Source of the DNA: Paenibacillus aceti
Lineage (GTDB): Bacteria > Bacillota > Bacilli > Paenibacillales > Paenibacillaceae
Assembly (NCBI RefSeq): GCF_003614185.1
Contig: NZ_KZ987724.1
Span: 3,449,056-3,513,055, forward strand
Direction: 5' to 3'
DNA length: 64,000 bases
Shown: piece by piece, positions 535-54,867 of the stretch
Layout: each line of letters begins with the position of its first letter
How positions within the stretch are numbered: the stretch's first letter is position 1
Notes under the pieces: model-generated
Databases searched by the model: none
Told to the model about the DNA's origin: nothing
The model's input: only the letters and a program-made list of their open reading frames with translations
Program-made: the position numbers and the translations under genes

Positions 535-975
535 TAGTTGCAGTAATAGTTGCAGAAATACACTTATCTCGGACAAATGAGCTTGAAATTAGAAAATAAC
601 TGAAAAAACACAACTATTTCCTTATTCGAAGCCTCAAATGTGGAAAATACTCCCAAATAGATGTATAAAAGCAGCTATTTTCTCTATGAAGGGCTTAAGG
701 TGCCAATATAGTTGCACATATGCACTTATCGTGTGAAAGTACCTGAGAGCACCGCCGTATCTAGCCTCATTGGGAGTATAATACCTGTATAAAGTACAAC
801 TAAAATCTCATATAATAGGCTCTGGCTTCACTTTAATTGCAAAAAGTACAGTTAAATAACGGTTCCTCTTGATCCGTGACAAATGGGAGATTCTAAATGT
901 ACAAAATACAGCTAAAAAAGCGAATCCCCACTCAATCTCAAAACTAAGTGTATGATATGCAATTAAACTGGCGCG
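535..975. repeat. Intergenic cluster of degenerate ~50-bp-period repeats, family A
   Basis: This 600-base gene-free stretch contains about eight related short blocks at roughly 547, 597, 660, 707, 785, 838, 897 and 948. Examples are TTGCAGAAATACACTTAT, ATGTATAAAAGCAGCTATTT, AATATAGTTGCACATATGCA and ATGTACAAAATACAGCTAAA. They share a GCAGYTA or TAACTGC core in either orientation, with unrelated bases between. The same blocks recur at 19741-19765 and 54637-54867. The blocks are too diverged and too often inverted for a CRISPR array. No coding frame is credible here. Confidence 0.6.
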
Positions 976-1006
976 ATTTGTTCCGCAGATAACTCAAAAG
1001 ACAGCG

Positions 1007-1052
1007 ACAAAAAAACAGCCCTGGGATATCCACGAATATCCCAAGGGCTGTT
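1007..1052 (-). terminator. Terminator of the surface nuclease gene
   Basis: On the minus strand the sequence AACAGCCCTTGGGATAT pairs with ATATCCCAGGGCTGTT across a short loop, with one bulged base, and is followed by a run of seven T. It starts 13 bases after the stop codon of the nuclease/nucleotidase gene. Confidence 0.9.
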
Positions 1053-1065
1053 CCACTTTATATCC

Positions 1066-4000
1066 TTATTTTTCGTACGTCAGTTTCTCAAGCATGCGGT
1101 TTAGCATAGCGGCGCTCTCGGCCCTTGTCGCATTCGCCTTCGGTGCGAAATGGTTGCGGCTGTCGCCTCTTACGATGCCGAGCCCTTTCAAGGTCTGCAC
1201 CGCAGCTTGCGCCCATGCGCCGGTAGTGGCTCCATCGACGAACTCAGCTGGCGAAGCAGTACCATGCTGGTATCCGGCGTATTCCAGCGCCTTGAATGCC
1301 ATTACGGCCATCTCTTCACGGGTAATCATCTGATCCGGACGGAATGTACCGTCCGCATATCCGCTGATAATTCCGGCTTTCACGGCCGCTTGGACCTTAC
1401 TGGCATGCCAGTCGGATGCCGATACGTCCTGGAAGGAGTTTGCCCCGGCTGTGGCTGGCAATCCCAGCGTCCTGACGATCAGCGCCGCGAATTCGGCACG
1501 GGTCACCGGAGCATTCGGTGCATAGTTCTGCTGTGCGCGCCCGGTTACGATCATCTTGGCAGCTAGAGATTCAATATCCGCCTTGGACCAATGGGAAGCG
1601 ATATCCTCGAAGGTGACCGGGTTCTGGAGGATCAGATAAGTCCCGTTCAGCTTACTGTAGATATCAATCCGCTGACCATCGACCTTGAACGGCACTGGCG
1701 TATAGCTATTGCCATCCAAGCGAACCACTGCAAGCGAAGCCGCTGAATCCAGCTTATCCAAGTTGATTGATCTTTGCACGTAAGAGCTATATTCACTGAG
1801 AGATACTGTCTTGCCATTGCCTGCCTGAGCGGTTACAGCGAAATTCACCGCTTGCAGGGCGCGATAGCCTTGGGCTTTCGCCGCTGCGATAGCATCCGCA
1901 TCCACAGCCAGCTTAATCATCAGCTGAATGTCGGCATTAGTAGTATCTGAGCCTACCTGCTTCGCCAAAGCTTGAAGATCGACTTCCTTCTGTGGCAGAG
2001 CATAGCTTCCGTAGGACGTTACGACATTCAGTACCCGGGCATCTGCCTGAGCAAGCCAAGCTTGAAGCGCAACGTTATCTACAGTAATCGCAGCGGACTG
2101 ATACGACTCTTTACTGACTGCTTCAATTGTAATCTTGCCGCCAGTAGGCTGCTTCAACGCGGCCTTCATCGCCTCGGCCGTCACGGAGCCAGTCGCCTCG
2201 CCTTGCTTAACTTGAAGCTGCACCTCAATTTTCCCCGGTTCTGTCGGTGCTTTAGGCTCTGCAGGCTTGTTCGAGCCTGTTGAACTCGATCCACTCGAAC
2301 TGCCCGATGTGCCTCCTGGGCTGCTTCCTCCTGGTTCTCCAGGCTGCCCTGGCTCTCCCGGAAGCGGCGCCCCCTTCAAGTCGATAATTCGACCTTCTAC
2401 AGCCGAAGTTTTATCCGTAATCGTACCTACCTTTTTCACATATTCTGAGAAAACCTCGTAGTCTGGCAGATAGAGCAGGTTGACACGTCCCTCCTGGTAC
2501 GCCTTTTCGAGCGAGCTATAGAAGTCGCCGCCCTTCGCCGTGAACACATTCGTAGCTACCTCGTACGACTTGTCCGGGTTCAGCGGCTCATAGCCGTTCT
2601 TGCCCTTCACCTCGATACGGAGGACCCGCTCTCCTTCCTTCTTGGTAGAGTCATAGTAGAACTTCATTCCGGCAATATGCGGGAAACGTCCATCCTGAGC
2701 AGGAATCTTGGACACGCCATTCTCCATGGCTTCCTTGATTTCTTTGCCTGTCAGCGTAATGGTGACCAGATCATTATTGAATGGTAGGACCGTCATCACG
2801 TCACCCATCGTAATTTTACCAGCAGCGATGGATTCGCGGATACCTCCCCCGTTCTGTAAGGCGATCACGGCATCCGTCCCTGCTGCCCGGGCTGCATCGA
2901 GCATACCGTCGGCAATCAGGTTCCCGAGATTGGTCTCCTTCGTCCGCACATCGGCGCGCACCCCGTTCAGCATTACTTCGGTCAGACCGACCTCGATCTG
3001 CTTCAGCTCTTCAATGCCTGGTTTGTATTTCGTATTCAGAATCTCCAGCGCTTCCGGATCCGGCTGGATGACATACTTCCCATTCGCGTCCTTCTCGTCA
3101 ATAGAGATCAGGCGGCTGTCCCAATCCTGGAGCACGCCTTCGTCGTCAAAGACCACTTCGAGCCTGCCGAGGAATTGCCCCTTCTCACCAGTCTGCACGA
3201 TCAGCTTCGGCTCACTGCCGCTGCGGTCCACGACCGCCTGATCCAGCTTAGTATGACTGTGACCGCCTACGACAATATCAATCCCGTCGACCGCTTGAGC
3301 CAGCTTGACATCCACATCATAGCCGAGATGCGTTATGGCGATGATTTTATTGACCCCTTCACTTCGCAGCATGGCGACGGTATCTTTGGCTTTCTGTACC
3401 GCATCATCGAATGTAACCAAGCCTGGCGATGAAATATTGGCCGTATCCTCCGTCGTCAGACCGAACAGGCCAACCTGTTGACCGTCCACTTCCATAATTA
3501 CCGCTGGATAGACGCTACCGGCTTCCGGCTTCCGCGAGATTTCGTCCTTGAATTTCCCCTTTAACAAAGGATCTGCTGAGAAATTCACATTCGAGGATAT
3601 GAACGGGAAGTCGGCATGCTCTATGAATTCGTTCAGCACCTCCGAGCCTTTATCAAACTCATGGTTGCCGAAGGTCATCCCATCATATTCAACCAGATTC
3701 ATAAACTCCAGATCCGCCAATCCAAAATATTTATTGAAGTACAGCGTACCGGAGAATACATCCCCTGCATCCAGAAGCAGCGGGTTGACTGCGCTTACCT
3801 TCTGTTCACGAATGGCGGCGACCCGCCTTGCAATATTATCTGGCGCACTTACGGTATCCAGATGGGCATGCGTGTCATTCGTATGCAGAATCGTCAGCGG
3901 GAACCCATCTACCTTCTGCGGCTGCAGATCGATCCGGGCCACGACCGGGTCATGGTCGGACACGCGGCCTTTCGTAGGTGAGAAATCCGCATTGAGATGG

Positions 4001-6819
4001 ACGACATCGACCTTAGCCGCCCGAGTCAGATTCTTGCTAACCAGAATATGATCAAGTACCTGCGAGTTGCCATCATAGGTGTATGTGTATTGCTCTTCCA
4101 ACGGCAGAGTCTCGATCAGATTGTCCAGTTCATTTCCTTTCAGAATCTGCGCCGTGTCTGTAAATTGAAAATCATTCAAATCGCCTGTCACGATGATATT
4201 CGACTGCGGATTCCCCTTCAGCACATCCTTGACGAATCCATTGACGACAGCAGCTATCTGATGGCGCTGGGCCTCACTGCCGAGCACCGGTGGCTGCGTA
4301 CTGCCAAACGGCCCCTGGTCTCCCGACTTCGAATTGAAGTGATTCGCTATGACGATCACTTTCTCACCGCGGAACTCGAACTGGGCTGCCAGCGGCTTAC
4401 GTGACTCATGAAATGCGCTATGGTTCGGCTCGATCCGGCCCGGATTGAAGGTCAGCTGATCCTTGTCTGCATCATAAGCTACCGCATCCGTTGAAGAACC
4501 CTTCTTGCCCTGCACACTGTCCGACAATTGGACACGCTCGGCATTGTAGAGGAAGCCGACCCGGATATTTCCCCCCGGCGCTCCGCCGTCACTATTATCG
4601 ACCGGCGCGATATCTGTGAAGCTGTAGGTTGGGCCGCCAGCTGCACGAATCGCATCGATCAGAGCTTGATAGCTCTGGTCCGCCGCTACTGTACCATCAT
4701 CCTTTTGCCCATTATTGTCCTGGACTTCGACCAGACTGATAATATCTGGCGATTTCATATTGAGGACGATGGACTCCGCCAGTTTGTTGATTTTAGCGGA
4801 ACCTACACCCGGGTTGAAATTCTCAATATTATAAGTAGCTATTCTTAATTGATCATCCTTCACTTCAATCGTAGATACTTCCTGCTCAAAGGAACTACTC
4901 TCGATATCAGGCAGTCCATCTTTCTCTGGAATCACTTTGAAATTCCCGTTATTGTAACCGATAACCCCGATCACATCATCAGCGAATGTATCACCTGTGC
5001 TCACTTCTGTGCCAGGATCTCCATAGGCAATAATGAGACGCTGCGGGTTGAAGTTTCCTTGTTCCTTCAGCACCAGGCCACCAGCCGGTGTGATCACATC
5101 GGGAACATCATTCTCAACGCGAGTGGCAATATTGTAAGTACCGCTGCTCGTCCAATAAGGACTGATGATCGTTGGCTCAGGAAGTCTGACCCGCATCCCT
5201 TCCAGTGATTCATAGAAGTCTATGGCGTCTTCCTCTGGATCGAAGATCTCGAATCCGTCATTGTCAATAATCGACGTGGGGATTGGACGACCGCCCTTGC
5301 CAAGTGTGATCGGCTCTGGCAGTGGCTGATTCTGATCGATGACCCTATAATTTTGAAGCTCAATCTGCGTAGACGTCAGATTACTTGCATTTCCCTCGTC
5401 ATATTCGGCTACTTTACCATCAACGGATACAAGATCGCCCACCTTAGGCTGTTCGCTGCGTGTAGTGTAGACGAAGATGGCATCCGAAGTATTAGGATTT
5501 GCATCCGGGGTAGGGTCTTGGATGTAGAAGCCTTTAGTTTTTCCATTAGAGAAGGTATAACCGGATTGCGTGACAACCCCCTCGATATTCTCCACCATCT
5601 GGCCATTATAAGGAGAGATATGCCCTTCGCCCTGAATATCCGCGATCCGCGGCTGTTCAGTAGCTGTATAGACGAACTCAAATACTTGGCTTATTTCCGC
5701 GCCAGAGGCGGCGATCGCCTTGATGGTGATATCGTGATCTATCTGGATCGGCGCGCTATAAAGTGTGCTTGCCGTCGTAGGCTCCGTTCCATCTACGGTG
5801 TAATAGATCTTGGCATCCGGAGTTGGGCTGGATAGTACAACCTTACTCCCTGTAATGATTGGACCTGATCCCGGACTGGCGATTACAGAGAATAGCTCCT
5901 CGATCAGAGCCTCATCACTCAGCGGAATCAATTCATAAATCTTGCCAAACTGCTTCACCACACCCGTCACACGGCTGAAGGTTTTGCCCTCTTGCAGCTT
6001 AGGTGAACTGGAGTAAATGATAAATTCATCTCCGCCCTGAACGGCTGTATACTCCCCTGGCCGGTTCAGAGACTTAATAGAGATATCCTCCAGATAAACA
6101 AGCCTTGCTTCAAAAGCTTCTCCATGATCTGCGGCCAGGTCTGCTCCGCTAATTTGAATAGCCTGCGGAAGTCCGACATTTCTGCCTGTTACCTCAACCG
6201 GCAGAAGAGGATGCGGTTTAAGCTCCTGAAGATTTTTGTAAATCTCCATGACCCCGGCCACGCTGACCCGGTCCCCCACGCCTGCATCAAGCGAATAGCC
6301 GTATAGTACGATGCCGGCTGTATCATCTTGAATGTAAGTTTCTTGGCCTGCAACATGGGTGATAATCCCTTCCGTCCAGGCATTCTCAGTCCTTTCCTTG
6401 CTGCGTGCTTCGGCAACAGAAGTCTCCGTTAGAATGTCATATTGGAAGGAAGCTGTCGGCCCATTAACACCATCGACGCTCGCATAGGCATCGATCTGAA
6501 TCGGCTCATTCAGCACGATTGGACCATTTACAGGCAGGAATTCTGTGCCTGTCTCGCCTAACGAATTAACATTCGCATAGACAGCTGCACTGACTGAAGG
6601 AGGAGCCAGCGTAATCTCTGTCCCTGCTGGCCAGGCATTCGGTTCCGGGGAAGCCGTTACTTCCCCCACCTGGGCGATCTCAATTTGATCCATTTGAGGT
6701 GAAGCTTGTACCTTTTGCATAGGACTGATAGGAAGGATTGTGCTTAAGAGCATTATGATAGCTAATAATAAGCTGATCGGTTTACAGAATCTTCTATATC
6801 GTGCGCGCATTCTGTTCAT
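1066..6819 (-). CDS. Giant S-layer-anchored extracellular nuclease / 5'-nucleotidase (YhcR-like)
   Basis: This 1917-residue secreted enzyme likely breaks down extracellular DNA/RNA and dephosphorylates the nucleotides. Order of parts: signal peptide (1-39), chitobiase-like beta domain (about 55-125), OB-fold region (135-310), second chitobiase-like domain (about 312-385, YYTVDGTEPTT), another OB region, an endonuclease/exonuclease/phosphatase domain (from LRIATYNIENFN to SDHDPVVARID), a metallophosphoesterase 5'-nucleotidase domain (HTNDTHAHLD, GNHEFDKG, GGHSHTK) with its C-terminal substrate domain, a Gly/Pro/Ser linker, an extra domain, and three SLH repeats at the C-terminus. It is longer than B. 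subtilis YhcR, which it resembles. The ATG at 6817-6819 follows AGAGGAGTG. It lies just downstream of the nucleoside importer genes on the same strand, from which an IS1380 copy now separates it. Confidence 0.9.
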   Translation of the reverse strand: MNRMRARYRRFCKPISLLLAIIMLLSTILPISPMQKVQASPQMDQIEIAQVGEVTASPEPNAWPAGTEITLAPPSVSAAVYANVNSLGETGTEFLPVNGPIVLNEPIQIDAYASVDGVNGPTASFQYDILTETSVAEARSKERTENAWTEGIITHVAGQETYIQDDTAGIVLYGYSLDAGVGDRVSVAGVMEIYKNLQELKPHPLLPVEVTGRNVGLPQAIQISGADLAADHGEAFEARLVYLEDISIKSLNRPGEYTAVQGGDEFIIYSSSPKLQEGKTFSRVTGVVKQFGKIYELIPLSDEALIEELFSVIASPGSGPIITGSKVVLSSPTPDAKIYYTVDGTEPTTASTLYSAPIQIDHDITIKAIAASGAEISQVFEFVYTATEQPRIADIQGEGHISPYNGQMVENIEGVVTQSGYTFSNGKTKGFYIQDPTPDANPNTSDAIFVYTTRSEQPKVGDLVSVDGKVAEYDEGNASNLTSTQIELQNYRVIDQNQPLPEPITLGKGGRPIPTSIIDNDGFEIFDPEEDAIDFYESLEGMRVRLPEPTIISPYWTSSGTYNIATRVENDVPDVITPAGGLVLKEQGNFNPQRLIIAYGDPGTEVSTGDTFADDVIGVIGYNNGNFKVIPEKDGLPDIESSSFEQEVSTIEVKDDQLRIATYNIENFNPGVGSAKINKLAESIVLNMKSPDIISLVEVQDNNGQKDDGTVAADQSYQALIDAIRAAGGPTYSFTDIAPVDNSDGGAPGGNIRVGFLYNAERVQLSDSVQGKKGSSTDAVAYDADKDQLTFNPGRIEPNHSAFHESRKPLAAQFEFRGEKVIVIANHFNSKSGDQGPFGSTQPPVLGSEAQRHQIAAVVNGFVKDVLKGNPQSNIIVTGDLNDFQFTDTAQILKGNELDNLIETLPLEEQYTYTYDGNSQVLDHILVSKNLTRAAKVDVVHLNADFSPTKGRVSDHDPVVARIDLQPQKVDGFPLTILHTNDTHAHLDTVSAPDNIARRVAAIREQKVSAVNPLLLDAGDVFSGTLYFNKYFGLADLEFMNLVEYDGMTFGNHEFDKGSEVLNEFIEHADFPFISSNVNFSADPLLKGKFKDEISRKPEAGSVYPAVIMEVDGQQVGLFGLTTEDTANISSPGLVTFDDAVQKAKDTVAMLRSEGVNKIIAITHLGYDVDVKLAQAVDGIDIVVGGHSHTKLDQAVVDRSGSEPKLIVQTGEKGQFLGRLEVVFDDEGVLQDWDSRLISIDEKDANGKYVIQPDPEALEILNTKYKPGIEELKQIEVGLTEVMLNGVRADVRTKETNLGNLIADGMLDAARAAGTDAVIALQNGGGIRESIAAGKITMGDVMTVLPFNNDLVTITLTGKEIKEAMENGVSKIPAQDGRFPHIAGMKFYYDSTKKEGERVLRIEVKGKNGYEPLNPDKSYEVATNVFTAKGGDFYSSLEKAYQEGRVNLLYLPDYEVFSEYVKKVGTITDKTSAVEGRIIDLKGAPLPGEPGQPGEPGGSSPGGTSGSSSGSSSTGSNKPAEPKAPTEPGKIEVQLQVKQGEATGSVTAEAMKAALKQPTGGKITIEAVSKESYQSAAITVDNVALQAWLAQADARVLNVVTSYGSYALPQKEVDLQALAKQVGSDTTNADIQLMIKLAVDADAIAAAKAQGYRALQAVNFAVTAQAGNGKTVSLSEYSSYVQRSINLDKLDSAASLAVVRLDGNSYTPVPFKVDGQRIDIYSKLNGTYLILQNPVTFEDIASHWSKADIESLAAKMIVTGRAQQNYAPNAPVTRAEFAALIVRTLGLPATAGANSFQDVSASDWHASKVQAAVKAGIISGYADGTFRPDQMITREEMAVMAFKALEYAGYQHGTASPAEFVDGATTGAWAQAAVQTLKGLGIVRGDSRNHFAPKANATRAESAAMLNRMLEKLTYEK

Positions 6820-6882
6820 TCACTCCTCTATCAAATTTTCATAGCCTCACTCACAGCATAATCCGCAATTGTTATGACAGAA

Positions 6883-8690: not shown

Positions 8691-8725
8691 CTACTATTGT
8701 GTATAGGCGTGTGAATGGTGACCGT

Positions 8726-15254: not shown

Positions 15255-15430
15255 ATTTCAGGTGAGGTAGAGGTCGCAACTGTGAAGAGTATACCGGAGG
15301 AGGCGTATGAAGCCGCCTGTGAATCCGGAAGAAAGGCACCGTTGCCGAAGCGTTCAATCAGCTTCTATCCGATTGAGTCGCTGGGGCTGTCATCGAAAGG
15401 GACAGAACTGTCACAATGACCAGACCATGT
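15255..15430 (+). ncRNA. Lysine riboswitch (L-box) aptamer
   Basis: Conserved L-box blocks occur in order: GAGGTAGAGGTCGCAAC, AAGAGTATACCGGAGGAGG, GAAAGGCACCGTTGCCGAAG, GCTGGGGCTGTCATCGAAAGG and GGGACAGAACTGTC. It is followed by an intrinsic terminator (15500-15530) and then a lysP-like permease gene, which fits transcription attenuation in response to lysine. Boundaries are approximate. Confidence 0.93.
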
Positions 15431-15499
15431 GGGAATTGTGTTGAGCTATCTTCATGAAGGAATGGTGCGGAGATTATATGTATAACATGACTATAACAG

Positions 15500-18809: not shown

Positions 18810-18918
18810 TTGGTGATTGAATCTCGTTGGTGAGGGGGATTAAGGAGATCTCACTCAAAAAATAGCAAAATTTGCGTAAAATAACTTCGAGAACGCGAAA
18901 CCGAGGTTGGTTGCCCTT

Positions 18919-19105
18919 CTAACGAAACCAGATATCGCTATTTGCATCAAAAGACGCGATTTCAAAGTCTAATGAAACAGGGTATCGCTATTAGGGCAGA
19001 TATGGGGCTATATGATGGATTTTTAGCGAAATAGCGATATGGTGTTTCGTTAAGATAGAGTGGACGCTGATTTCACTGAAATAACGATATGGTGTTTCGT
19101 TAGAG
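18919..19105. repeat. Inverted repeat cluster, family B (forward-forward-reverse-reverse)
   Basis: Four copies of a 24-27-base block occur: two forward (CTAACGAAAC followed by TATCGCTATTT) at 18919 and 18969, and two inverted (AAATAGCGATATGGTGTTTC) at 19029 and 19079. The members of each pair are 50 bases apart. An element with the same order and nearly the same length (186 against 187 bases) is at 44151-44336, and a single half-unit is at 33026-33069. The rest of the 18810-19233 gap has no gene. Confidence 0.8.
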
Positions 19106-19740: not shown

Positions 19741-19765
19741 GGAATAAGTGTATTTCTGCAACTAA
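19741..19765 (-). repeat. Single copy of repeat family A
   Basis: On the minus strand TTGCAGAAATACACTTAT, identical to the first block at 549-566, lies directly after the trxB terminator. A third, slightly diverged copy begins the cluster at 54641. Confidence 0.7.
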
Positions 19766-33025: not shown

Positions 33026-33069
33026 GCAGATTTCGCGGAAATAACGATATGGAGTTTCGTTAGAGCTCG
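33026..33069. repeat. Solitary half-unit of repeat family B
   Basis: The segment ending GATATGGAGTTTCGTTAGAG matches 19066-19109 at about 40 of 44 positions, including the flanking GATTTC and GAGCTCG. It is a single inverted-type unit without partners. Confidence 0.75.
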
Positions 33070-33168: not shown

Positions 33169-33840
33169 TCAGTAGCTTCCTTCACTGCGCTCCCCTTGCG
33201 CGATCAAGACGCCAGCGCTCGTCCCGAGACGGGTAGCACCAGCTGCGATCATAGCTTCAGCATCAGCCAGCGATCTTACGCCGCCGGAGGCCTTGACGCC
33301 GATTCCCGGACCGACGGTCCGCGCCATAAGCGCCACGTCCTCTACAGTAGCCCCTCCCGTGGAGAAGCCGGTCGAGGTCTTCACGAAATCAACCCCAGCC
33401 GATAGCGCCAATCGGCAGGCCTGAACAATTTCCTCCGGGGTCAGCAGGCAGGTCTCGAGAATCGCCTTCACGAGCGCTTTGCCTTCAGCTGCCTCAACCA
33501 CGCCGATCATATCACGGACTACCAAATCATGATCTCCACCTTTAAGCGCGCCGATATTTATAACCATATCGACCTCATTCGCGCCTTCAAGAATCGCATG
33601 GGACGCTTCGAAGGCTTTAACTTCCGGCTCGGACGCTCCCAGCGGAAAACCGATTACCGTACAGACCTTGATCTGTGGCGAATCCTTAAGCCGCTCGGCA
33701 GCCGTCCTCACCCATACCGGGTTCACGCATACCGAAGCGAAGCCGTATTGTCTGGCCTCATCCGACAGCTTGAGGATATCCTCCTGACGCGCATCCGGCT
33801 TGAGTAAAGTATGATCGATTCTGGAGATAATGGACTTCAT
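33169..33840 (-). CDS. deoC: Deoxyribose-phosphate aldolase
   Basis: About 223 residues, cytosolic class I aldolase that splits deoxyribose 5-phosphate into glyceraldehyde 3-phosphate and acetaldehyde, the last step of deoxynucleoside use. Seen: [54 protein letters not shown] (Schiff-base Lys region), [20 protein letters not shown]. Start: ATG 33838-33840 has GGGGG about ten bases upstream; the ATG at 33849 is too close to that site. It fits the nucleoside scavenging genes at the left of the window. Confidence 0.93.
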
Positions 33841-38335: not shown

Positions 38336-38394
38336 GCGTGCCCAAACTTGCCCAGAGATGTGAACATCCCCTGTTTTGGCCGGATCACTCGGAC

Positions 38395-38573
38395 AAGGAC
38401 ATAAATGTCCGTTAGCGTTGATTTTGTAGCACCTCGCCCCTGTAACGGACATAAATGTCCATTACAAGGAAAATAGCCGCGAAAAATGAAATTTTATGCT
38501 TCTAAGGGTCAAAAATGTCCGTTAGAGGCGCGTAATAGCTGCTTTCAGGCTCTAACGGACATTTTTGACCGCT
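38395..38573. repeat. Repeat cluster, family C (GGACAT..ATGTCCGTTA)
   Basis: Four related blocks: GGACATAAATGTCCGTTA (near 38398), TAACGGACATAAATGTCCA (near 38443), GGTCAAAAATGTCCGTTAGA (38507-38526) and its exact inverse (38551-38570). The last two form a perfect 20-bp stem. Blocks start about 45-60 bases apart. No gene is seen in this gap. Confidence 0.75.
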
Positions 38574-38685
38574 ACCCGACCGACTGTGTTTATCACTTGC
38601 GCCACGCAAGCTTAATAGATGGTACAAGGATAGAAGCCGACTCCGACGCGAATAAATACGGAGTTTGGGATTCTGGCTTTGCCCA

Positions 38686-38771: not shown

Positions 38772-39704
38772 TCAGCGTTTGTTGAAAATATCCGTAAGCA
38801 CCGGAACGATTTGCGATTTGCGGGACACCACGCCTTTGAGGACCGCCGTGTTGTTCTCAAGCTTCACATTGTAAGCTTGTTCAACTGCATCGGCAGCATT
38901 ACCAACAGCCAGGCCCACAGAATCATTATTAAGGATATCTGTTACGACGAACAGGAACAGAGCAAGTCCCTTGCGATCTACAATATTCCCAAGCGCAGCC
39001 TCCAGCTCAGCCTGACGGGACAGCACATCGTTGACGTCCACCGCATTGACTTGCGCGATCTCCACTTTGGAGCCGCCCATATCAAATTCCTTGGCATCCA
39101 GTGTGATCAATTGCTCGATGCTCTTATCGCTGAGGTCTGCACCAGCCTTAAGCATCTCCAAGCCGTACTCTTCCGCATCCACGCCAGCGATTTCCGCCAG
39201 CTCGCGTGCCGCTGCCACATCCTGCTCCGTGCAGGTAGGCGATTTGAACAGGAGCGAATCGGAAATGATCGCCGATAGCATCAGTCCGGCAATATTGGCC
39301 GGTACAGGAACACCGTTCTCCTTGTACATTTTGTTCAGAATAGTCGCAGTGCAACCCACAGGCTCAGCACGGTAGTACAAAGGTCCGCTTGTCTCAAAAT
39401 TAGCAATACGGTGATGGTCAATGACCTCAGCAACCCGAACTTCAGCGATATCTGCAGCACTTTGCTGACGTTCGTTATGGTCGACCAGAATAACGTCCTT
39501 CACTTCATTAGCCACCGTCTCAACCACACGGGGCGCCTTGAAGCCAAAACGATCAAGTGCAAATTGGGTCTCCCCATTAGGAGCACCCAGAGCAACCGGT
39601 TCAACATTCCAGCCAAGCTTCGCCTTCAAGTCCGCATAGGCAATCGCCGAGCAGATCGTATCCGTATCCGGATTTTTATGTCCGAAAATCAACACTTTTT
39701 CCAT
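38772..39704 (-). CDS. ppaC: Manganese-dependent inorganic pyrophosphatase
   Basis: 310 residues, family II pyrophosphatase of the DHH phosphoesterase superfamily. Seen: metal motif [35 protein letters not shown] (DHH), and C-terminal [12 protein letters not shown]. It hydrolyses pyrophosphate to drive biosynthesis. AAAGGGGAGTTAAC precedes the ATG. Single gene with its own terminator. Confidence 0.96.
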
Positions 39705-39911
39705 TTGTTAACTCCCCTTTACCTTATTCGCTTAGAAAAGTATATCCCAGAAACTGACCGACAATCAAGGGTTTATCCGCAATTTGCTAGTTTTTTACTT
39801 TTTATAACTTTATGAGATCTTGGTTATATTTTCAGCGAATATTCAGCCAAATCGTAGATAATAGATAATAGGTAAATCAGTAGCTTCGTTTATTAACAGG
39901 GGGACCCATTC

Positions 39912-40598
39912 ATGAGAAATGTAAAAGGCGTGAGAATATTACTGGTCGATGACGAACCGAACATTATTCAATTCCTTGAGCTTGGACTCAGCAACGAGGG
40001 CTTCGAAGTCCGTACTGCCCATGATGGAATGACGGCTGTCAATATAGCTCATACGTATCGGCCCCATATCGTCGTGCTTGACGTTATGATGCCGGGTATG
40101 GATGGCTGGGAGGTATGCCGACTGCTGAGGAGAGAATTGAGCCCTATCTCTATTATTATGCTTACCGCAAAGGATGAAGTGAATGATCGGGTCAAGGGCC
40201 TGACGATCGGTGCCGACGATTATGTGGTGAAGCCGTTCAGCTTCGAGGAATTGCTGGCCCGAATCGGCGCGCGCTTGCGCAATCAGTTCCCTGCCCTGTT
40301 CGGAGAAGTGTCCTATGGCCCTTTTCGAATCGATGACCGCAGGAAAGAAATCATCTATCAGGAGCAGGTGCTGGATCTGTCACCGACCGAGCATGAGCTG
40401 CTTAAATATTTGCTCATTAATCACGGGATCGTACTCAGCAAGACGACAATCCTGGATCAGGTATGGGGCTATGATTTTGGCGGGGAAGAGAATATTGTAG
40501 AGGTCTATATACGCTCATTGCGTGAGAAGCTGAACGACCGGGAGCATCGGCTCATTCGCACCCTCCGCGGCGCTGGCTACCGGGTTGATCTGCCATGA
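39912..40598 (+). CDS. OmpR-family response regulator
   Basis: 228 residues. Receiver domain with acidic pocket DDE (14-16), phospho-acceptor Asp57 (IVVLDVMMPGMDG), Thr in MLTAKDE and Lys in YVVKPFSF. C-terminal winged helix (LSPTEHELLKYLLINHG, VWGYDFGGEENIVEVYI, RTLRGAGYRV). AGGGGGACCCATTC precedes the ATG. It overlaps the histidine kinase gene as ATGA, so the two form one unit. Regulon unknown. Confidence 0.95.
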   Translation: MRNVKGVRILLVDDEPNIIQFLELGLSNEGFEVRTAHDGMTAVNIAHTYRPHIVVLDVMMPGMDGWEVCRLLRRELSPISIIMLTAKDEVNDRVKGLTIGADDYVVKPFSFEELLARIGARLRNQFPALFGEVSYGPFRIDDRRKEIIYQEQVLDLSPTEHELLKYLLINHGIVLSKTTILDQVWGYDFGGEENIVEVYIRSLREKLNDREHRLIRTLRGAGYRVDLP

Positions 40599-43660: not shown

Positions 43661-43894
43661 TAAGGTTCCCTTTATGATAGCACACCTATCCCGTTCGCCC
43701 TGCACAGAACAGAGCCTTTGAGCAGTATTCAATTAGCCGCGCAAAGTTGTAAGACGGATTTTAATGTACAACACTAGGAACCCTCCGTTCATGTAAATTA
43801 TGTACATATTAACATACTTTAAACCTGCGTACAACGATGCTCGCTGGTAAAGATGACTATAATCAAGTGTGTTCATGCCTACCTGGACAAAGTC

Positions 43895-44090
43895 GAAAAC
43901 TGCAAATAGACAGGCTTTTGGGTCCGAGACCGGCTGTTCTAGGAAAATTCCTGCGAATATGCAGGCTTTATGAGCTTTTTCTGTGGAATCAGGCTGATGC
44001 GGAGAAAATAACTGCCTTTTCGCAGGAATTTATCTTCAAGGGGCCGAATATGGGTGAAATAACTGCATTATCGCAGGCTTTTTGGGGAAC
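43895..44090. repeat. Repeat cluster, family D (AACTGC..GCAGGCTTT)
   Basis: Four blocks near 43895, 43945, 44006 and 44058: AAACTGCAAATAGACAGGCT, TTCCTGCGAATATGCAGGCT, ATAACTGCCTTTTCGCAGGA, ATAACTGCATTATCGCAGGC. Each can form a small GC hairpin, and spacing is 50-60 bases. It runs directly into family B at 44151. A 105-codon frame over this area is only a read-through of repeats. Confidence 0.75.
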
Positions 44091-44150
44091 TCGGAACTGG
44101 GCTGGCAACTCGTACGATCTCCAACGATCTCTAATGTGCTATAACGAACT

Positions 44151-44336
44151 CTAACGAAACGCGGTATCGCTATTCGCGCCAAAAAGGGCCTTTGAAAATT
44201 ATAACGAAACAGGGTAACGTTATTTCGCCCAAATAATCGTGTAAAGCCTGGATTTTGCTCAAATAGCGATATGGTGTTTCGTTAGATTTGAACAGGGCCT
44301 GTTTTTGAGTAAATAGCGTTATGGTGTTTCGTTAGA
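44151..44336. repeat. Inverted repeat cluster, family B, second copy
   Basis: Forward blocks at 44151 and 44201 (TAACGAAAC then TATCGCTATT or TAACGTTATTT) and inverted blocks at 44261 and 44311 (AAATAGCG then GGTGTTTCGTTAGA). Order, 50-base step and total length equal those at 18919-19105, while the bases between blocks are unrelated. Confidence 0.8.
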
Positions 44337-45321: not shown

Positions 45322-45332
45322 TGTAAATAACA

Positions 45333-45500
45333 AGACCTCGTTAGGTGAGGCTCCTATACAAACATAAGCCACTGCCCAGAAATATCGAAAGATGCCCATG
45401 GGTGGAACAGGAATTGCCGAACTAAGGCTTTTCATAATGTGGCTAAGACGAGATAAATCGTCTTTACGTTGTATAGTGCCAAAACTCAGGTTAGGGGCTG
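45333..45500 (+). ncRNA. M-box (ykoK) magnesium riboswitch aptamer
   Basis: M-box landmarks occur in order: TCGTTAGGTGAGGCTCCTAT, AAGCCACTGCCCAGAAATAT, CGAAAGATGCCCATGGGT, GGAACAGGAATTGCCGA, then GTTGTATAGTGCCAAAACTC, whose GTATAG pairs with CTATAC of the 5' side. A terminator follows and the gene downstream is a Mg transport ATPase. Boundaries approximate. Confidence 0.93.
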
Positions 45501-45529
45501 CGCATCATTGCGTTGACTTAGTTTTCTAT

Positions 45530-45807: not shown

Positions 45808-45837
45808 TTTCCCTCCGCTGCATTGGAGGCGAACACG

Positions 45838-48498: not shown

Positions 48499-48561
48499 AA
48501 GATGGAAAACCAAGATGCAGACCCGTCGTCATGGCTGAATTCAAACTGCAACACTGAACAA

Positions 48562-48614
48562 AAAGAACCTTCAATATACCTCCCAGAAGTAGGGAAAGTA
48601 TCTGAAGGTTCTTT
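48562..48614. terminator. Bidirectional terminator between mgtA and the helicase
   Basis: AAAGAACCTTCA (48562-48573) pairs with TGAAGGTTCTTT (48603-48614) and is flanked by A and T runs. Confidence 0.88.
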
Positions 48615-48624
48615 ATTTTCTTCT

Positions 48625-50862: not shown

Positions 50863-51035
50863 AGAGCACTCCACACGGCTTGATTATTTTGAACACAAAA
50901 AAGTACCCCATCCATCCATATTTACTGAATGAAAAAGGCACAGTCAATTAACAATGAACATCCATTATTATAGCATATCCCTTATACCGCAGAAATAAGC
51001 ACGATACCGAAGCTGCGCTCCCTGATCACGCGACG

Positions 51036-51296
51036 TCAGCGGCTCTTGACCAGCAATTCCACAGCCTGATGAACCACCTTGCTGTTATCTCTGCCCGCTT
51101 CCTCCTCGGCAAGGATGCAATGCTCCAGATTGGAGGCTACGATATAGGCCATCGCCTTATCGATCGCGCTGCGGATCGCGGACAATTGACAGACGACGTT
51201 CTGGCAGTCCTGCCCTTCCTCCATCATTTTCAGCACGCCGCGCACTTGGCCCTCTGCACGTTTCAATCTTTTCTTAATATCGTCATCGTACTGCAT
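51036..51296 (-). CDS. CstR-like persulfide-sensing repressor (CsoR family)
   Basis: 86 residues. CsoR-family helical repressor. Cysteines 31 and 60 (GQDC, LEHC) match the CstR persulfide-sensing pair in spacing and flanking residues. The copper-ligand His of CsoR, four before the second Cys, is Asn56 here, so copper sensing is unlikely. An extra Cys36 and His59 are present. C-terminal HQAVELLVKSR is typical of CstR. The ATG at 51296 follows AGAGGAGATAATAG. Last gene of an operon headed by an ATACCCCTAGGGGTAT operator, the expected CsoR/CstR site, so autoregulation is likely. Confidence 0.85.
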   Translation of the reverse strand: MQYDDDIKKRLKRAEGQVRGVLKMMEEGQDCQNVVCQLSAIRSAIDKAMAYIVASNLEHCILAEEEAGRDNSKVVHQAVELLVKSR

Positions 51297-51388
51297 AGCT
51301 ATTATCTCCTCTACGAACACATGTTATATCTATTATTTCCGATCTTTAGCCGAAAAACAACGTGCCTGGCAAGTACCTAAGGAGCAAA

Positions 51389-51805
51389 TTAAGCGCATGG
51401 GTTGCTGCATTTACACTTCTGTGCGATCAGTTCTTTGAAGCATGGGATCGACAAGAACTCATCGCTGACCAATGTCAGATGCTTATACCCGCATTGTTTC
51501 ATAATTCTCGCAGCCTTTTTGCCTTGAGCCTTCGTAGCGGAAATAATAATAATTTCATCTTCAAAATATAAGTCATTCTTCCGTACATACCGTAATCTGC
51601 CCACCGAGATGTTGAGCGCTCCCGGAACATGTGCCTCGTAATAATCTACCTGATCCCGCACATCCAGCAGCTTGAACCTATGTATCTCCCCCTTCAGCAG
51701 CTTGCAGAACTGGTCTTCGTTAATATAGCTTAGTCCCCGGACCGGTCTGCTCCGCCAGGCGATAATCGCAATAATCATGCATATCATAGAATAATAGATC
51801 GCCAA
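51389..51805 (-). CDS. Membrane-anchored rhodanese-like protein lacking the catalytic Cys
   Basis: 138 residues. N-terminal helix (YYSMICMIIAIIAW), then a rhodanese-like fold (FKLLDVRDQVDYYEAHVPGA, VGRLRY). The active-site loop, normally C-x-x-G-x-R, reads ISATKAQGKKAAR, without Cys. The C-terminus ends KCKCSNPCA, rich in Cys. A TTG start (51803-51805) follows GGGAGGTCGTTATT. Could carry sulfur on its tail or be regulatory. Lies in the CstR-like operon. Confidence 0.7.
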   Translation of the reverse strand: MAIYYSMICMIIAIIAWRSRPVRGLSYINEDQFCKLLKGEIHRFKLLDVRDQVDYYEAHVPGALNISVGRLRYVRKNDLYFEDEIIIISATKAQGKKAARIMKQCGYKHLTLVSDEFLSIPCFKELIAQKCKCSNPCA

Positions 51806-51826
51806 AATAACGACCTCCCGTTTGGT

Positions 51827-51910
51827 TTAGTCAATATCTCCTGACCAGGCGGACATACCGCCGACCATATTTATAACATGATAGCCGAGTTCTTTATAAG
51901 AGCCGTTCAT
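51827..51910 (-). pseudogene. Rhodanese C-terminal fragment
   Basis: A 27-residue frame MNGSYKELGYHVINMVGGMS-AWSGDID matches the last helix and GGM..W end of single-domain rhodaneses (typical: ELGYxxVxxxxGGMxAW). The first ~70 residues, including the active-site loop, are missing. A GGGAGGAATCAGG ribosome site precedes the ATG, so it may still be translated. It is the first unit after the CstR-type operator. Confidence 0.65.
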
Positions 51911-51942
51911 CCCTGATTCCTCCCGAGCCTGAGTATATGATA

Positions 51943-51993
51943 ATACCCCTAGGGGTATATAGATAATTTATAATGTTTTTCCCTCTGCGTCAA
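51943..51993 (-). promoter_or_regulatory. CstR/CsoR-type operator and promoter
   Basis: Perfect palindrome ATACCCCTAGGGGTAT (51943-51958) just downstream of a promoter with -35 TTGACG (51988-51993) and -10 TAAATT (17-base spacer) on the minus strand. C-rich/G-rich palindromes of this type are bound by CsoR-family repressors, and such a repressor is encoded in the operon. Confidence 0.85.
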
Positions 51994-52017
51994 CTTTAAT
52001 TATAATTTTGCATATGT

Positions 52018-52050
52018 TTAGTACCAGATACTAATACTTAGTGCTATAAT
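52018..52050 (+). promoter_or_regulatory. FapR-like operator and extended -10 promoter of fabH
   Basis: TTAGTACCAGATACTAA (52018-52034) is a 17-base inverted repeat close to the FapR consensus. TGCTATAAT (-10 TATAAT at 52045-52050) follows, so the operator overlaps the -35 area. FapR represses fatty acid genes until malonyl-CoA rises. Confidence 0.75.
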
Positions 52051-52073
52051 AAAAATAAAAAAGAGGTGATCCC

Positions 52074-53072
52074 ATGAAAGCTCAGTTCTCTCAAGCACGT
52101 ATAACCGCTATTGGCACCTATGTTCCCGAGCAGCGGCTGACCAATGATGATTTATCCAGACTGGTGGACACGAATGACGAATGGATCGTACAAAGAACCG
52201 GCATGAAGGAACGCCGGATTGCCGCGGAGCACGAATTCACCTCAGATCTCTGCATTAAGGCGGTACAGAACCTGGCAGAGCGCTATGACAAAAGACTGGA
52301 CGATGTTGAAATGATTATTGTGGCGACGACAACGCCAGATCATCCTTTTCCGAGTGTAGCTACTAAAATTCAGGATCATTTCAGGATCAGCAGCACGGGA
52401 GCATTCGATCTGAATGCCACCTGCGCAGGCTTCGTGTATGGGCTGCATCTGGCCAATGGATTAATTACGGCCGGGCTTCACAAGAAAATTCTCGTCGTTG
52501 CCGGTGAGACGCTATCCAAGGTGACTGACTATACCGACCGCTCCACTTGCATTCTGTTCGGGGATGGAGCTGGCGCGGTGCTCGTTGAATACGATGAATC
52601 CCATCCCGGGTTCATCTCCTCGATCCAAGGCACGAACGGAGAAGGCGGCATTCATGTCTATCGCTCAGGCTTGTCGCACACATTTAAAGGAACAGAGCTC
52701 GCTGGAAACGGAAAAATGGTGCAAAACGGCCGGGAAGTGTATAAATGGGCAGTTCAGACCTTATCCACTGGAATTAAGCAACTCTTAGAGCAAGCGAATC
52801 TGAATGTCGATGATATCGACTGGTTCGTTCCGCATAGCGCCAATCTACGCATGATTGATTCCATCTGCGAGAAATCCGGTCTACCGCTGGAGCGGACATT
52901 ATACAGCATGGAGTATTTCGGTAATACCTCGGCGGCTTCCATCCCGCTGGCCCTTGATCTCGGGGTACGAGACGGACGACTAAATTATGGGGATACCCTG
53001 ATGCTATATGGTTTTGGAGGCGGACTCACGCATAGCAGCCAGATCATCAAGTGGGGCGTGCCCCGCGTATAA
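52074..53072 (+). CDS. fabH: Beta-ketoacyl-ACP synthase III
   Basis: 332 residues. Starts fatty acid synthesis by condensing an acyl-CoA with malonyl-ACP. Catalytic triad visible: Cys in NATCAGFVYGLH, His in WFVPHSANLRMI, Asn in YFGNTSAAS. N-terminal ITAIGTYVPE and TNDEWIVQRTGMKER are typical. Resembles the second paralogue FabHB (YhfB) of B. subtilis, which is also FapR-controlled. AAGAGGTGATCCC precedes the ATG. Single gene. Confidence 0.93.
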   Translation: MKAQFSQARITAIGTYVPEQRLTNDDLSRLVDTNDEWIVQRTGMKERRIAAEHEFTSDLCIKAVQNLAERYDKRLDDVEMIIVATTTPDHPFPSVATKIQDHFRISSTGAFDLNATCAGFVYGLHLANGLITAGLHKKILVVAGETLSKVTDYTDRSTCILFGDGAGAVLVEYDESHPGFISSIQGTNGEGGIHVYRSGLSHTFKGTELAGNGKMVQNGREVYKWAVQTLSTGIKQLLEQANLNVDDIDWFVPHSANLRMIDSICEKSGLPLERTLYSMEYFGNTSAASIPLALDLGVRDGRLNYGDTLMLYGFGGGLTHSSQIIKWGVPRV

Positions 53073-53084
53073 TCAAGCGACAAA

Positions 53085-53126
53085 AAACCGGTGAAGTGGT
53101 GGGCTATAGCACTTTTTCACCGGTTT
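53085..53126. terminator. Bidirectional terminator after fabH
   Basis: AAACCGGTGAA (53085-53095) pairs with TTCACCGGTTT (53116-53126), with A and T runs on either side. Confidence 0.85.
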
Positions 53127-53136
53127 AATTATTTAT

Positions 53137-53307
53137 CTAATGATCTGCGTTCTTCAAGGCCTGCTCCCAGCTCGGAAAATAGAACAACGCGCTTCTCATC
53201 AACTCGGGATCATGCTGCTTCACCTGCTTCTTGCTGATAGGCTCTCCATTGCTCTGAAGCTGCTTGATGCGGTTAATGACCTCATCCGCGCCCATTGAAA
53301 TTTCCAT
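53137..53307 (-). CDS. Small protein with a single homing-endonuclease-associated (HNH-repeat-like) motif
   Basis: 56 residues from ATG 53305-53307, after GAAAGGAGGATTAGG. Helical start MGADEVINRIKQLQSNGEPI, then SKKQVKQHDPELMRSALFYF and PSWEQALKNADH. The pattern 'pisk..l....p.l...a..yFpSWe.AL..A' is that of the short repeat found beside HNH nucleases, here alone. It may be a small DNA-binding protein; the assignment rests on the pattern only. Confidence 0.55.
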   Translation of the reverse strand: MEISMGADEVINRIKQLQSNGEPISKKQVKQHDPELMRSALFYFPSWEQALKNADH

Positions 53308-53387
53308 CCTAATCCTCCTTTCCAAGAAGCCGTTTCCTCTATTTTCCACAATTATGCCGTGAAATATTCACCTCGGTAAGTATTTGT

Positions 53388-53933
53388 CTATCCTCTTCGC
53401 CTTCTTAACCATAGATACCACCCGGCGATACCAAGGATAACTGCGACGATAGCTGAACCCCACACGATATAAGATCTGCTAGCATGAATCGGCATAGCTC
53501 CTTCTGTGCCATCAACTGTAAGCTGCAATTCTCTAGCATCGAGAAAAGTGAACTCATCACCGCTTATATCAGCTACTTTCTTCGTTGGTGCGCATAATGG
53601 ATTCACCCAACCTTGCCCTTCCTCGTAATTAAGAAAGAACAGATACTCTTCGTGAAGAACGCTTGGTCCCGACAGAGCCCCCCAGAATTTATCCTCGAAA
53701 ATATCTAGCTTCTCTTCTTTAATCCCCTTGAAACTCCTCATCACAGATAGCTTGACCTGATTGTTCTGCCTTTTCTCCTGAACGCTCACTACCCGCCCGA
53801 TGACTACGCCGTCATATTTCTGGTAGGCCTCGGGGATGGTGGGGATCTCCACACATGATAAGGCGGATGCCTGTATAGATGTGAACAAATTCAGGATCAG
53901 AATAAAGAATGCGATAACTCCGATTCTCTTCAT
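53388..53933 (-). CDS. Secreted, C-terminally anchored NTR/TIMP-like protein
   Basis: 181 residues. Signal peptide (MKRIGVIAFFILILNLFTSI, ends SALS), followed directly by Cys in SCVEIPTIPEAYQKYDGVVI, an OB-like beta domain (GRVVSVQEKR, KLSVMRSFKGIKEEKLDIFE) and a second Cys in NPLCAP, then a C-terminal membrane helix with basic end (YIVWGSAIVAVILGIAGWYL, RRRRG). The layout resembles netrin/TIMP-like domains of Firmicutes surface proteins. Function unknown. Confidence 0.65.
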   Translation of the reverse strand: MKRIGVIAFFILILNLFTSIQASALSCVEIPTIPEAYQKYDGVVIGRVVSVQEKRQNNQVKLSVMRSFKGIKEEKLDIFEDKFWGALSGPSVLHEEYLFFLNYEEGQGWVNPLCAPTKKVADISGDEFTFLDARELQLTVDGTEGAMPIHASRSYIVWGSAIVAVILGIAGWYLWLRRRRG

Positions 53934-54076
53934 AGTATCCCTCCTATTGCTGTAAAGACGCTGCGAGAAGTAGGAAAGGTTGCAGTACGTGCAAGTCTAA
54001 CAATAGGTGAACAAGCATAGAACCCGCTTGATAGCCTCATAATAGGAACATTCCAAATTGAAGAAGGTGCATTAGG

Positions 54077-54553
54077 ATGGGCAAAAAGCTGAGCCTGCTC
54101 ATGTTCAGCGGAGAGTATGATAAAGCGATGGCCGGGCTGATCCTGGCGAATTCGGCGCATGATATGGATATGGAAGTGACGATGTTCTTCAGCTTCTGGG
54201 GGCTGTTCCTGATCAGAGATCCCGAGAAGATGACGACCGAGGACAAATCGCTGTACGAGAGAATCATGACCTTAGCGACACCGAAGGGTCCCGAGCAGCT
54301 GCCGCTATCCAAAATGAATTTCAGCGGACTGGGCAAATGGATGCTTGAGGAGATGATAGAGGATCAAGAGGCACCGAAGCTGATTCATTTCCTGAAGGGC
54401 GCGCGCAAGAAGAACATTAAGTTCTCCGCCTGCAAGCTATCTGTAGAGATCATGGGGATCAAGCCAGAGGAGCTATTGCCGGAGGTCGAAATTGTGGATG
54501 CTCAAGCCTATTTGAGGGATGCTCTAGAGTCGGATGTTCAGCTGTTTATTTAG
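54077..54553 (+). CDS. DsrE/DsrF/DrsH-like (peroxiredoxin-family, sulfur-relay) protein
   Basis: 158 residues of the DsrE-like superfamily: LSLLMFSGEYDKAMAGLILA, MDMEVTMFFSFWGLFLIRDP and a conserved Cys119 in FSACKLSVEIMGI. Such proteins pass persulfide sulfur (YrkE/TusD/DsrE types), often with rhodaneses and CstR regulators, and a CstR-like operon lies 2 kb away. Own ribosome site is weak (AGAAGGTGCATTAGG). Single gene. Confidence 0.82.
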   Translation: MGKKLSLLMFSGEYDKAMAGLILANSAHDMDMEVTMFFSFWGLFLIRDPEKMTTEDKSLYERIMTLATPKGPEQLPLSKMNFSGLGKWMLEEMIEDQEAPKLIHFLKGARKKNIKFSACKLSVEIMGIKPEELLPEVEIVDAQAYLRDALESDVQLFI

Positions 54554-54636
54554 GTAAAAGCGCGGATTCCTTTCCGCTCTTCCCTTCAGGGGAGCTAGAC
54601 ATTCGGGTCACCCGTACTTGATATTGCACGGTACTT

Positions 54637-54867
54637 GCTAATAACTGCAGAAATACAATTATTTTGGCCCCTCTATTAGAGGGAAATCCGTCTAAATAGA
54701 TGTATAAAAGCAGTTATATCCTCGGATGGAGGGGTAAAGCGCCAATATAACTGCATATTAGCACTTATCAGCCACTCCCTCCCCATCCCCCATCAATGGA
54801 AGCGACAGCCCTTCCCACCCGGCTGAACTATCTAAGTGCAGCTATAAATATTTTCATAAAAACAGCA
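54637..54867. repeat. Repeat cluster, family A, second copy
   Basis: Blocks near 54641 (ATAACTGCAGAAATACAATT), 54695 (AATAGATGTATAAAAGCAGT), 54744 (GCCAATATAACTGCATATTA) and 54838 (AAGTGCAGCTATAAATATTT) match those at 547, 660 and 707 in order and spacing (about 50 bases). The bases between blocks differ. No gene occurs in this 390-base gap. Confidence 0.75.

Follow-up and report, generated by a model that had tools for sequence, protein, structure and literature searches.

The nearest described class to the repeats analyzed here is that of the REP/BIME/REPIN elements. In three papers (PMC2817692, PMC3116915, PMC3733652), these elements are described as palindromes that are short and intergenic, occur in many copies at regular spacing, and carry a fixed tetranucleotide foot; their conserved blocks are separated by more variable spacers, and their families, several per genome, each lie near a dedicated gene of their own. 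The repeats that we describe resemble them in being intergenic palindromes with a tetranucleotide foot, many copies, and regular spacing, in having blocks better conserved than the spacers, and in having several families per genome that lie near their own gene. An earlier note on the window (the whole stretch of 64,000 nucleotides of Paenibacillus aceti DNA) had reported four families of regularly recurring blocks; beyond this, we find a fixed grouping of the blocks into quartets and a cognate gene for the families, and a related class can be named.

Four Phased Palindromes Form One Kind of Element

The dispersed repeats represent a single kind of ~190-bp noncoding element built from four short palindromes. 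Each quartet comprises four imperfect palindromes of 20 to 26 bp, the first two in one orientation and the last two inverted, and families A to D have a common strict geometry of 50/61/50 bp from center to center, or ~5, 6, and 5 helical turns. The elements in the window are as follows:

543..731, + strand: A-family quartet of four palindromic blocks, centers ~557, 607, 667, and 718, intervals 49.5/61/51
783..967, unstranded: second A-type quartet (TTAATTGCAAAAAGTACAGTTAA type), identified by eye and from a 112-bp direct pair at 786
18917..19104, + strand: complete B quartet, 50/61/50
19741..19765, - strand: single A block (remnant)
33039..33064, + strand: single B block (remnant)
38390..38576, + strand: complete C quartet, 50/60/50
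43893..44083, unstranded: complete D quartet, 51/61/51
44147..44336, + strand: complete B quartet, 50/61/50
54638..54770, unstranded: degraded A quartet with three clear blocks, 54.5/51

The quartet at 783..967 (centers about 793, 845, 905, and 956) went undetected in our weight-matrix scan; a similar one lies upstream of the A-type nuclease gene at G000:C1:3833903 (compare L171).

The blocks reported by the earlier note are all present where it had placed them, and several of its groupings were redrawn. Its single A stretch at 535-975 does hold A blocks, as two quartets side by side, and 43895-44336 resolves into a D quartet followed by a B quartet. The blocks at 19741-19765 and 33026-33069 are real, as lone blocks and not quartets, and 54637-54867 is correctly placed in the A family, as a degraded quartet. 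The loose period of 45-60 bases is replaced by two classes of interval, 49-52 and 60-62, which follow one another as 50/61/50 (143 of 150 neighbor intervals fall within these two ranges). Four sequence types do exist, with families A and D intergrading. The TAAC/GTTA foot holds for A, B, and C; many D blocks lack it and carry GCCTGCA instead, the D foot often being GCC/GGC. Quartets in other species and genera mostly start with TAACGG or TAACGA or, in one protein clade, with TA-N-N-TG.

The bases between blocks, previously described as unrelated, are partly conserved in family B, where the mean pairwise identity among 14 quartets is 84% in blocks, 53% in spacers, and 27% just outside. Quartet ends are sharp: identity across 29 B quartets drops from 0.65-0.95 within the outer block to 0.23-0.31 beyond it. 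The A/T-dinucleotide period in B is 9.9 bp (a value without a computed null).

Copy Number, Placement, and RNA-Level Readings

With the same pattern read backwards as the control, the home genome contained 115+132 B-block matches (247, the highest B count; control, 0+0), 50+43 A-block matches (93; control, 0+0), 103 C-block matches (counted once, as the pattern is palindromic; control, 0), and 70+71 D-block matches (141, some places of this near-palindromic pattern being counted on both strands; control, 0+0). These counts lie far above the reversed-pattern control, so the genome-wide search proposed earlier speaks against random frequency. A de novo scan of the intergenic DNA within an even 864-kb sample agreed, with 32 direct 18-mer pairs at spacing 50 and 19 at spacing 51 (shuffles, 0 at both), and 119 pairs overall versus 2 in the shuffle. 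The class was not seen in 200-kb samples of G038, G019, and G133. Restriction to gene-free gaps, as first claimed, very nearly holds: at thresholds passing one to three control hits per family, in-gene matches amounted to 2/84 (A), 2/99 (B), 5/21 (C), and 11/120 (D).

Clusters were more frequent in convergent than in divergent gaps (15 versus 1 in 75 gaps each; p 5e-4), and in same-strand gaps they lay nearer the upstream stop than the downstream start in 22 of 29 cases. The latter bias, together with two D blocks of the window that score as terminator-like, would suit elements acting at the RNA level, as terminators or 3'-UTR hairpins. Hairpins, however, do not need a constant spacing of 5/6/5 turns; no Rfam model matched the repeat places at gathering thresholds; and arm-to-arm covariation was absent in the 15 B quartets that made up the test (paired, 0.506; permuted, 0.502; 64 variable pairs). 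This permutation led us to reject the RNA-structure reading, which we regard as very improbable, and the pairing of B arms without covariation argues for double-stranded recognition.

The abundance of these extragenic palindromes, about a hundred or more copies per family in the home genome, and their tetranucleotide foot would also fit REP/REPIN elements of the classical kind, mobilized by a Y1 (RAYT) transposase. Yet the 14 Y1 hits of the home genome, of equal score and frame length, resemble one IS200, and their 1.5-kb flanks held one D quartet, ~1 kb from one copy, and otherwise scattered weak hits. The RAYT reading was thus rejected for the home genome, whose Y1 (PF01797) genes have no adjacent quartet, and it is the most improbable that we considered.

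Quartets Beside a Nuclease-Like Gene Family

Such elements are dispersed in Paenibacillus-related genomes, where they usually flank an uncharacterized nuclease-like gene. Outside the home species, and in other genera as well, the 50/61/50 geometry recurs beside members of this one gene family, which bears out the earlier suggestion of one class of element across different sequences. A quartet scoring above 48 lay within 1.5 kb at 45 of 50 gene loci from 48 genomes (mostly the best gene match per genome), the nearest being 16-1182 bp away (median, 105). The threshold of 48 equals the highest score among 150 windows of G038, G019, and G133, whose 0/150 is therefore by construction; shuffled flanks reached 47 at most. 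Because an alignment of the first set of loci served to find the second, the two sets are not fully independent. Equal background windows contained a quartet in 27/200 cases in G000, 5/15 in G016, 1/5 in G029, 1/70 in G008, 1/20 in G022, G010, G013, and G032 together, 0/20 in G003, and 0/20 in G031. Proximity alone is weak evidence in the repeat-dense G000 and G016, and gene-quartet proximity as such is not proof that the protein would bind.

Spacing and copy number point the same way. Direct repeats at gene loci had a spacing of 50 at 21 of 30 loci and of 51 at 4, any other spacing between 20 and 199 occurring at no more than 5. One block taken from the nuclease flanks had 201, 85, 55, 46, 38, and 35 pattern matches in six gene-bearing genomes and 0 in seven gene-less genomes. 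Since G038 and G133 have the gene and their 200-kb samples show no repeat class, carriers need not be quartet-rich. Moreover, the block type tracks the protein clade: of the 32 loci in the first set, 26 entered this comparison, and the word AACG[AG][AC] occurred in 0/5 EIK loci and in 2-5 copies in 21/21 E[IL][QH] loci.

The home genome has three gene copies, each next to a different family: one by a C array of 8 blocks, one by a D quartet, and one by an A-type quartet. It counts against the pairing that the B-type gene is absent there although B hits are the most numerous; the closest home copy to the B type is the C-type one (53% identical to the B-type of G031). G008 has seven gene matches, of which the B, C-, D-, and A-side copies and a partial copy were examined: its B gene is flanked by two B quartets; three other copies have a C, a D, and an A block at 90, 437, and 210 bp, the D-side copy having one in-frame stop; and another C block lies 362 bp from the partial copy.

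Turnover Between Species

In a syntenic comparison of the kind suggested earlier, orthologous gaps differ in quartet content between species. G008, G003 (Paenibacillus sp. GM2), and G031 (Paenibacillus sp. D2_2) each lack an aligned copy of the C quartet (38390..38576) in the orthologous gap, and aligned copies of the D quartet at 43893..44083, the B quartet at 44147..44336, and the degraded A quartet at 54638..54770 are likewise absent from these three genomes. Conversely, the gap at 39704-39912 has A blocks only in G031 among G000, G008, G003, G031, G016, G022, G010, G013, and G032; its ends are blurred, and from the alignment an insertion would be the simple reading. The neighbors of the B gene are identical in G008 and G031, and we consider that the nuclease-like gene probably stays put for the most part while quartets spread. 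No excision product was found, nor clear target duplications (words of at least 6 at the ends: B, 0/29, null 0.018; C, 1/12, null 0.000; A/D, 1/34, null 0.027), and we therefore infer mobility from presence and absence. A MITE with ends GTTCAAAAAGTCC...GGACTTTTTGAAC is polymorphic in these species.

The small size, inverted symmetry, intergenic dispersal, and sharp ends of the quartets would also be expected of MITEs of an unrelated transposon, with the nuclease-like gene a passenger beside them by chance. This reading was rejected because clear target duplications are missing; it is further opposed by the geometry common to sequence-unrelated families and by the gene association, in frequency as well as in the tracking of protein clade by block type, and we hold it to be quite improbable.

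The Partner Protein

The partner protein (~218 aa) has a DUF559/Vsr-like region and a winged-helix-like C terminus. In the L172 protein, residues 67-132 match DUF559 (8e-5; 22.9 bits, cut-off 20.6), and 4 of 29 members match this profile at 0.01 or better (best, 2.1e-5). D71 and E84 are invariant in 29/29 members, and the motif Lys is replaced by Gln or His in 22/29. The putative nuclease assignment draws on these DUF559 matches and invariant acidic residues. A structure model, from a two-sequence alignment, had a mean pLDDT of 45, too low for use, and solved structures matched the C-terminal region only, weakly.

The gene occurs in 220 of 296 genomes of the order, and 9 of 41 same-genus genomes lack a match. 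The B gene is under purifying selection (dN/dS 0.063-0.110 in three pairwise comparisons); several gene copies contain stop codons. No relative was found on viral contigs or, with one query protein, in phages; plasmids gave a single match, in a Paenibacillus cellulosilyticus record, with high-scoring quartets on both sides of its copy.

The DUF559/Vsr-like region, the multiple paralogs, and the decayed copies could reflect a selfish nuclease whose sites are protective or addictive, or else a defense module, in which the protein would cut DNA and the quartets would mark or titrate it. A PADLOC scan of four proteins, however, returned weak matches only (best, 0.002, to the end of a SoFic model), and dispersed sites would require a spreading process anyway, which makes this reading improbable. 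Somewhat less improbable, though still unlikely, is a domesticated architecture system, in which the protein on phased quartets would bend or bridge the chromosome or insulate transcription units, its nuclease region being structural or rarely used and the quartets being kept as functional. The spacing retained while spacers diverge, the convergent-gap preference, the 9.9-bp period, and purifying selection on the B gene favor it; quartet turnover and species-specific sequences, the same-genus genomes lacking the gene, the interrupted copies, and the invariance of D71 and E84 do not.

Proposed Mechanism

The nuclease-like gene may recognize and spread the quartets, and our preferred reading, which we think probable, is a partnership of the REP/RAYT kind in which a nuclease-like protein unrelated to RAYT takes part, whereby quartets would be spread by the gene product acting on double-stranded DNA. 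Each quartet would represent four palindromic half-site pairs in helical phase (5, 6, and 5 turns), and each sequence family would be partnered with its own copy of a protein combining a DUF559/Vsr-like, PD-(D/E)XK-type region with a winged-helix-like region. A protein dimer would bind each palindrome through the winged helix; four dimers on one DNA face would bend the element into a single complex; the nuclease regions would break DNA at the element end or the target; and repair would copy the quartet into a new intergenic place.

There is, in our estimate, an even chance that this is a new mobile-element system, in which one winged-helix nuclease of the PD-(D/E)XK type spreads and maintains nonautonomous phased-palindrome quartets order-wide, without a DDE, Y1, serine, tyrosine, or reverse-transcriptase enzyme, and with site specificity per paralog. 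The dedicated gene of REP elements encodes a single-strand transposase, and we know of no other palindromic repeat class with a dedicated gene. To our knowledge, neither mobile-element chemistry of this nuclease kind nor a DUF559-like/winged-helix protein paired with genomic repeats has been described, and a literature search, with most subscription journals outside its reach, returned no description of these repeats or of the gene. Here, an order-wide nuclease-like gene family is linked with repeats whose geometry is strict. Should the repeats be the product of this protein, DNA would be dispersed by a chemistry unfamiliar for mobile elements, and the origin of the repeats would be directly testable; the ready protein-site pairs would lend themselves to the study of how DNA specificity evolves.

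Comparison with Known Systems

The likeness to REP/RAYT in having a family near a dedicated gene is one of analogy only, as the gene here is unmatched by the Y1 model: the partner in REP/RAYT is a Y1 HUH transposase, whereas that of the quartets is a DUF559-like and winged-helix protein. The REP/REPIN unit is an inverted doublet that forms a hairpin, and the unit here is four phased palindromes; the foot is GTAG or CGTC in REP and TAAC/GTTA in the quartets; and, in contrast to REP hairpins, B arms pair no better than column composition predicts. A static gene with spreading repeats has been proposed for RAYT genes and REPINs; here, the protein would be unrelated and the DNA double-stranded. 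Like MITEs, quartets are small, noncoding, and intergenic, with inverted symmetry and a presence that varies between species; unlike MITEs, they keep mainly blocks and spacing, have the same geometry in families of unrelated sequence, and lack clear target duplications. Lastly, the partner protein may be akin to DUF559/Vsr-like endonucleases, given the matching region of L172, and differs from them in that it joins this region with a winged-helix-like one and is associated with repeats in the genome.

Blocks occur throughout the genome in quartets of fixed geometry

The blocks that the earlier note named in the window were found there as described, and they recur throughout the 5.6-Mb home genome of P. 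aceti (G000; other G numbers are further genomes compared, with G003 and G031 among the relatives), in which the window spans G000:C1:3449056-3513055. Genome-wide searches matched 115 + 132 B, 50 + 43 A, 70 + 71 D, and 103 C blocks, the reversed-pattern control being empty in each case. Spacing was examined in 864 kb, made up of the window and 40 evenly spaced stretches of 20 kb each, where a motif-free count of intergenic direct repeats peaked at spacings of 50 (32 pairs) and 51 (19 pairs), with 0 in shuffles. Position weight matrices resolved 87 clusters in this sample, comprising exactly four blocks (34), a single block (33), three (8), two (7), or six to eight (5). Among the 47 clusters with at least three blocks, 143 of 150 neighbor intervals measured 49 to 52 bp (94) or 60 to 62 bp (49). 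The interval order is 50/61/50, with blocks 1 and 2 in the same orientation and blocks 3 and 4 inverted; two eight-block C arrays alternate 50/61 in G000 and 50/60 in G008. At 10.1 to 10.2 bp per turn, 50 to 51 bp corresponds to five helical turns and 61 bp to six. The A/T-dinucleotide period in 14 B quartets was 9.9 bp, as a raw figure without a null.

The quartets are discrete units: mean pairwise identity in B is 84% in blocks, 53% in spacers, and 27% in the six outside bases. In 75 quartets (34 A/D, 29 B, and 12 C) from the sample and from loci picked for density, identity drops to near background at the outer edge, although the drop is less sharp for the few C quartets, and end-to-end common words of at least 6 are rare (B, 0/29; C, 1/12; A/D, 1/34). 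Arm-to-arm covariation was not found in 15 B quartets (0.506 versus 0.502 permuted).

Several further features of the repeats were seen. Exact matches to the B block GATATGGTGTTTCGTTA along the chromosome G000:C1 lie on the minus strand in 18 of 18 cases between 0.08 and 0.75 Mb and on the plus strand in 26 of 26 between 0.93 and 3.35 Mb; the remaining 27 of 71 are of mixed strands, as is a GGA variant (22 + 13), and the switch points do not coincide with the turns in GC skew at about 1.4 and 4.3 Mb. Two quartets of B geometry (L075:1441 and L075:2010; L numbers are extracted loci) carry another block, TAACGGAACTCCAAGCCCTTATTT, and form a further small family. Two D/A quartets (L156:12973 and L156:17534), 4.56 kb apart and equally distant from their own upstream genes, are apparently a duplicated segment.

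Genomic location and differences between genomes

Clusters with at least three blocks lie in convergent (15), same-strand (29), and divergent (1) gaps, with 2 unplaced, the sample offering 75, 455, and 75 such gaps, respectively (p = 5e-4, convergent versus divergent). The window holds five such clusters, three of which could be aligned on both flanks in G008, G003, and G031, and the element was covered by the alignment in none of these nine comparisons. Different families can occupy one orthologous gap: before position 33169, G000 has a lone B block and G016 a D quartet, and before 54941, G000 has A blocks and G003 one C block.

Other elements include a separate MITE-like repeat of about 160 to 200 bp with ends GTTCAAAAAGTCC...GGACTTTTTGAAC, whose presence varies among G031, G008, and G003, and an IS200-like transposase (157 aa) with fourteen equal-scoring copies in G000:C1, possibly a recent burst, one of them just outside the window at 3513293-3513649.

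Other elements in the window and in a compared locus
15260-15456, lysine riboswitch preceding an open frame resembling an amino-acid permease (by eye)
45330-45503, M-box magnesium riboswitch preceding an open frame resembling a P-type ATPase (by eye)
L138:12140-12329 and L138:15183-15348 (G031), MITE-like inserts, plus other inserts

A nuclease-like gene accompanies the quartets

Dense repeat loci led to an open frame of ~218 aa, which is flanked by two B quartets in both G008 and G031 and adjoins the eight-block C array in G000. Three queries gave three copies in the home genome: the first is the one at the C array, the second has a D quartet at 0.4 kb, and the third has an A-type quartet scoring 69 on its 5' side along with A-like blocks, identified by eye, on its 3' side. 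Among seven matches in G008, the B copy lies between the B quartets, and three further copies have a C, D, and A block at 90, 437, and 210 bp, respectively.

Near the gene, 21 of 30 loci have direct repeats spaced at 50 bp and 4 have them spaced at 51 bp, other spacings from 20 to 199 occurring in at most 5. Using a quartet score based on self-similarity only (maximum 48 in 150 control windows and 47 in shuffled flanks), 31 of 32 first-set loci exceeded every control window and shuffled flank, 10 of them on both sides. In a second set, with 10 of its 28 loci from genomes already in the first, 25 scored above 48, the weakest (L224, score 49) looking like chance. A quartet lay within 1.5 kb in 45 of 50 non-repeated loci, drawn from several hundred gene matches and mostly each genome's best; contig ends cut three of the five quartet-less loci. 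The background of 0/150 in G038, G019, and G133 follows from the construction of the threshold. Independent background windows held a quartet in 27/200 (G000), 5/15 (G016), 1/5 (G029), 1/70 (G008), 1/20 (G022, G010, G013, and G032 pooled), 0/20 (G003), and 0/20 (G031). In the quartet-dense genomes G000 and G016, proximity by itself is weak evidence.

Block type tracks protein clade

Across 26 loci, protein clade separated block type without exception. One block from the flanks of the nuclease-like gene in a single species group (both strands counted, near-symmetric places twice) had 85 pattern matches in G001, 55 in G023, 46 in G040, 35 in G005, 38 in G012, 201 in G167 (another genus), 13 in G181, and 7 in G329. 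It had 0 to 1 in G000, G014, G015, and G303, which carry other gene copies, and none in seven genomes lacking a gene match, the controls giving 0 to 3. The chief evidence against a strict one-gene-one-family rule comes from the home genome, which has the most B repeats but lacks a B-type gene.

Within the genus, 32 of 41 genomes had a match to the gene, at 1 to 11 matches each, some copies being partial or carrying stops, and across the order it was matched in 220 of 296 sampled genomes (40 of 48 genera); the search beyond the order covered phages, plasmids, and viral contigs. Of 29 members, 4 matched DUF559 in the N-terminal region (best, 2.1e-5), and winged-helix matches in the C-terminal region were weak. 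Asp71 and Glu84 are invariant in all 29 members, and two residues after Glu84 stands Gln (16), Lys (7), or His (6). Among B orthologs, dN/dS was 0.063 to 0.110 (three pairs).

Comparison with REP/RAYT systems

By analogy, the system is REP/RAYT-like in its working, with putative binding, cutting, and movement, yet it is no member of REP/RAYT, because B shows no selection for single-strand pairing, the quartet blocks have a different foot, the unit consists of four blocks, and the partner protein, unlike the Y1 enzyme of REP/RAYT, is not of the Y1 type.
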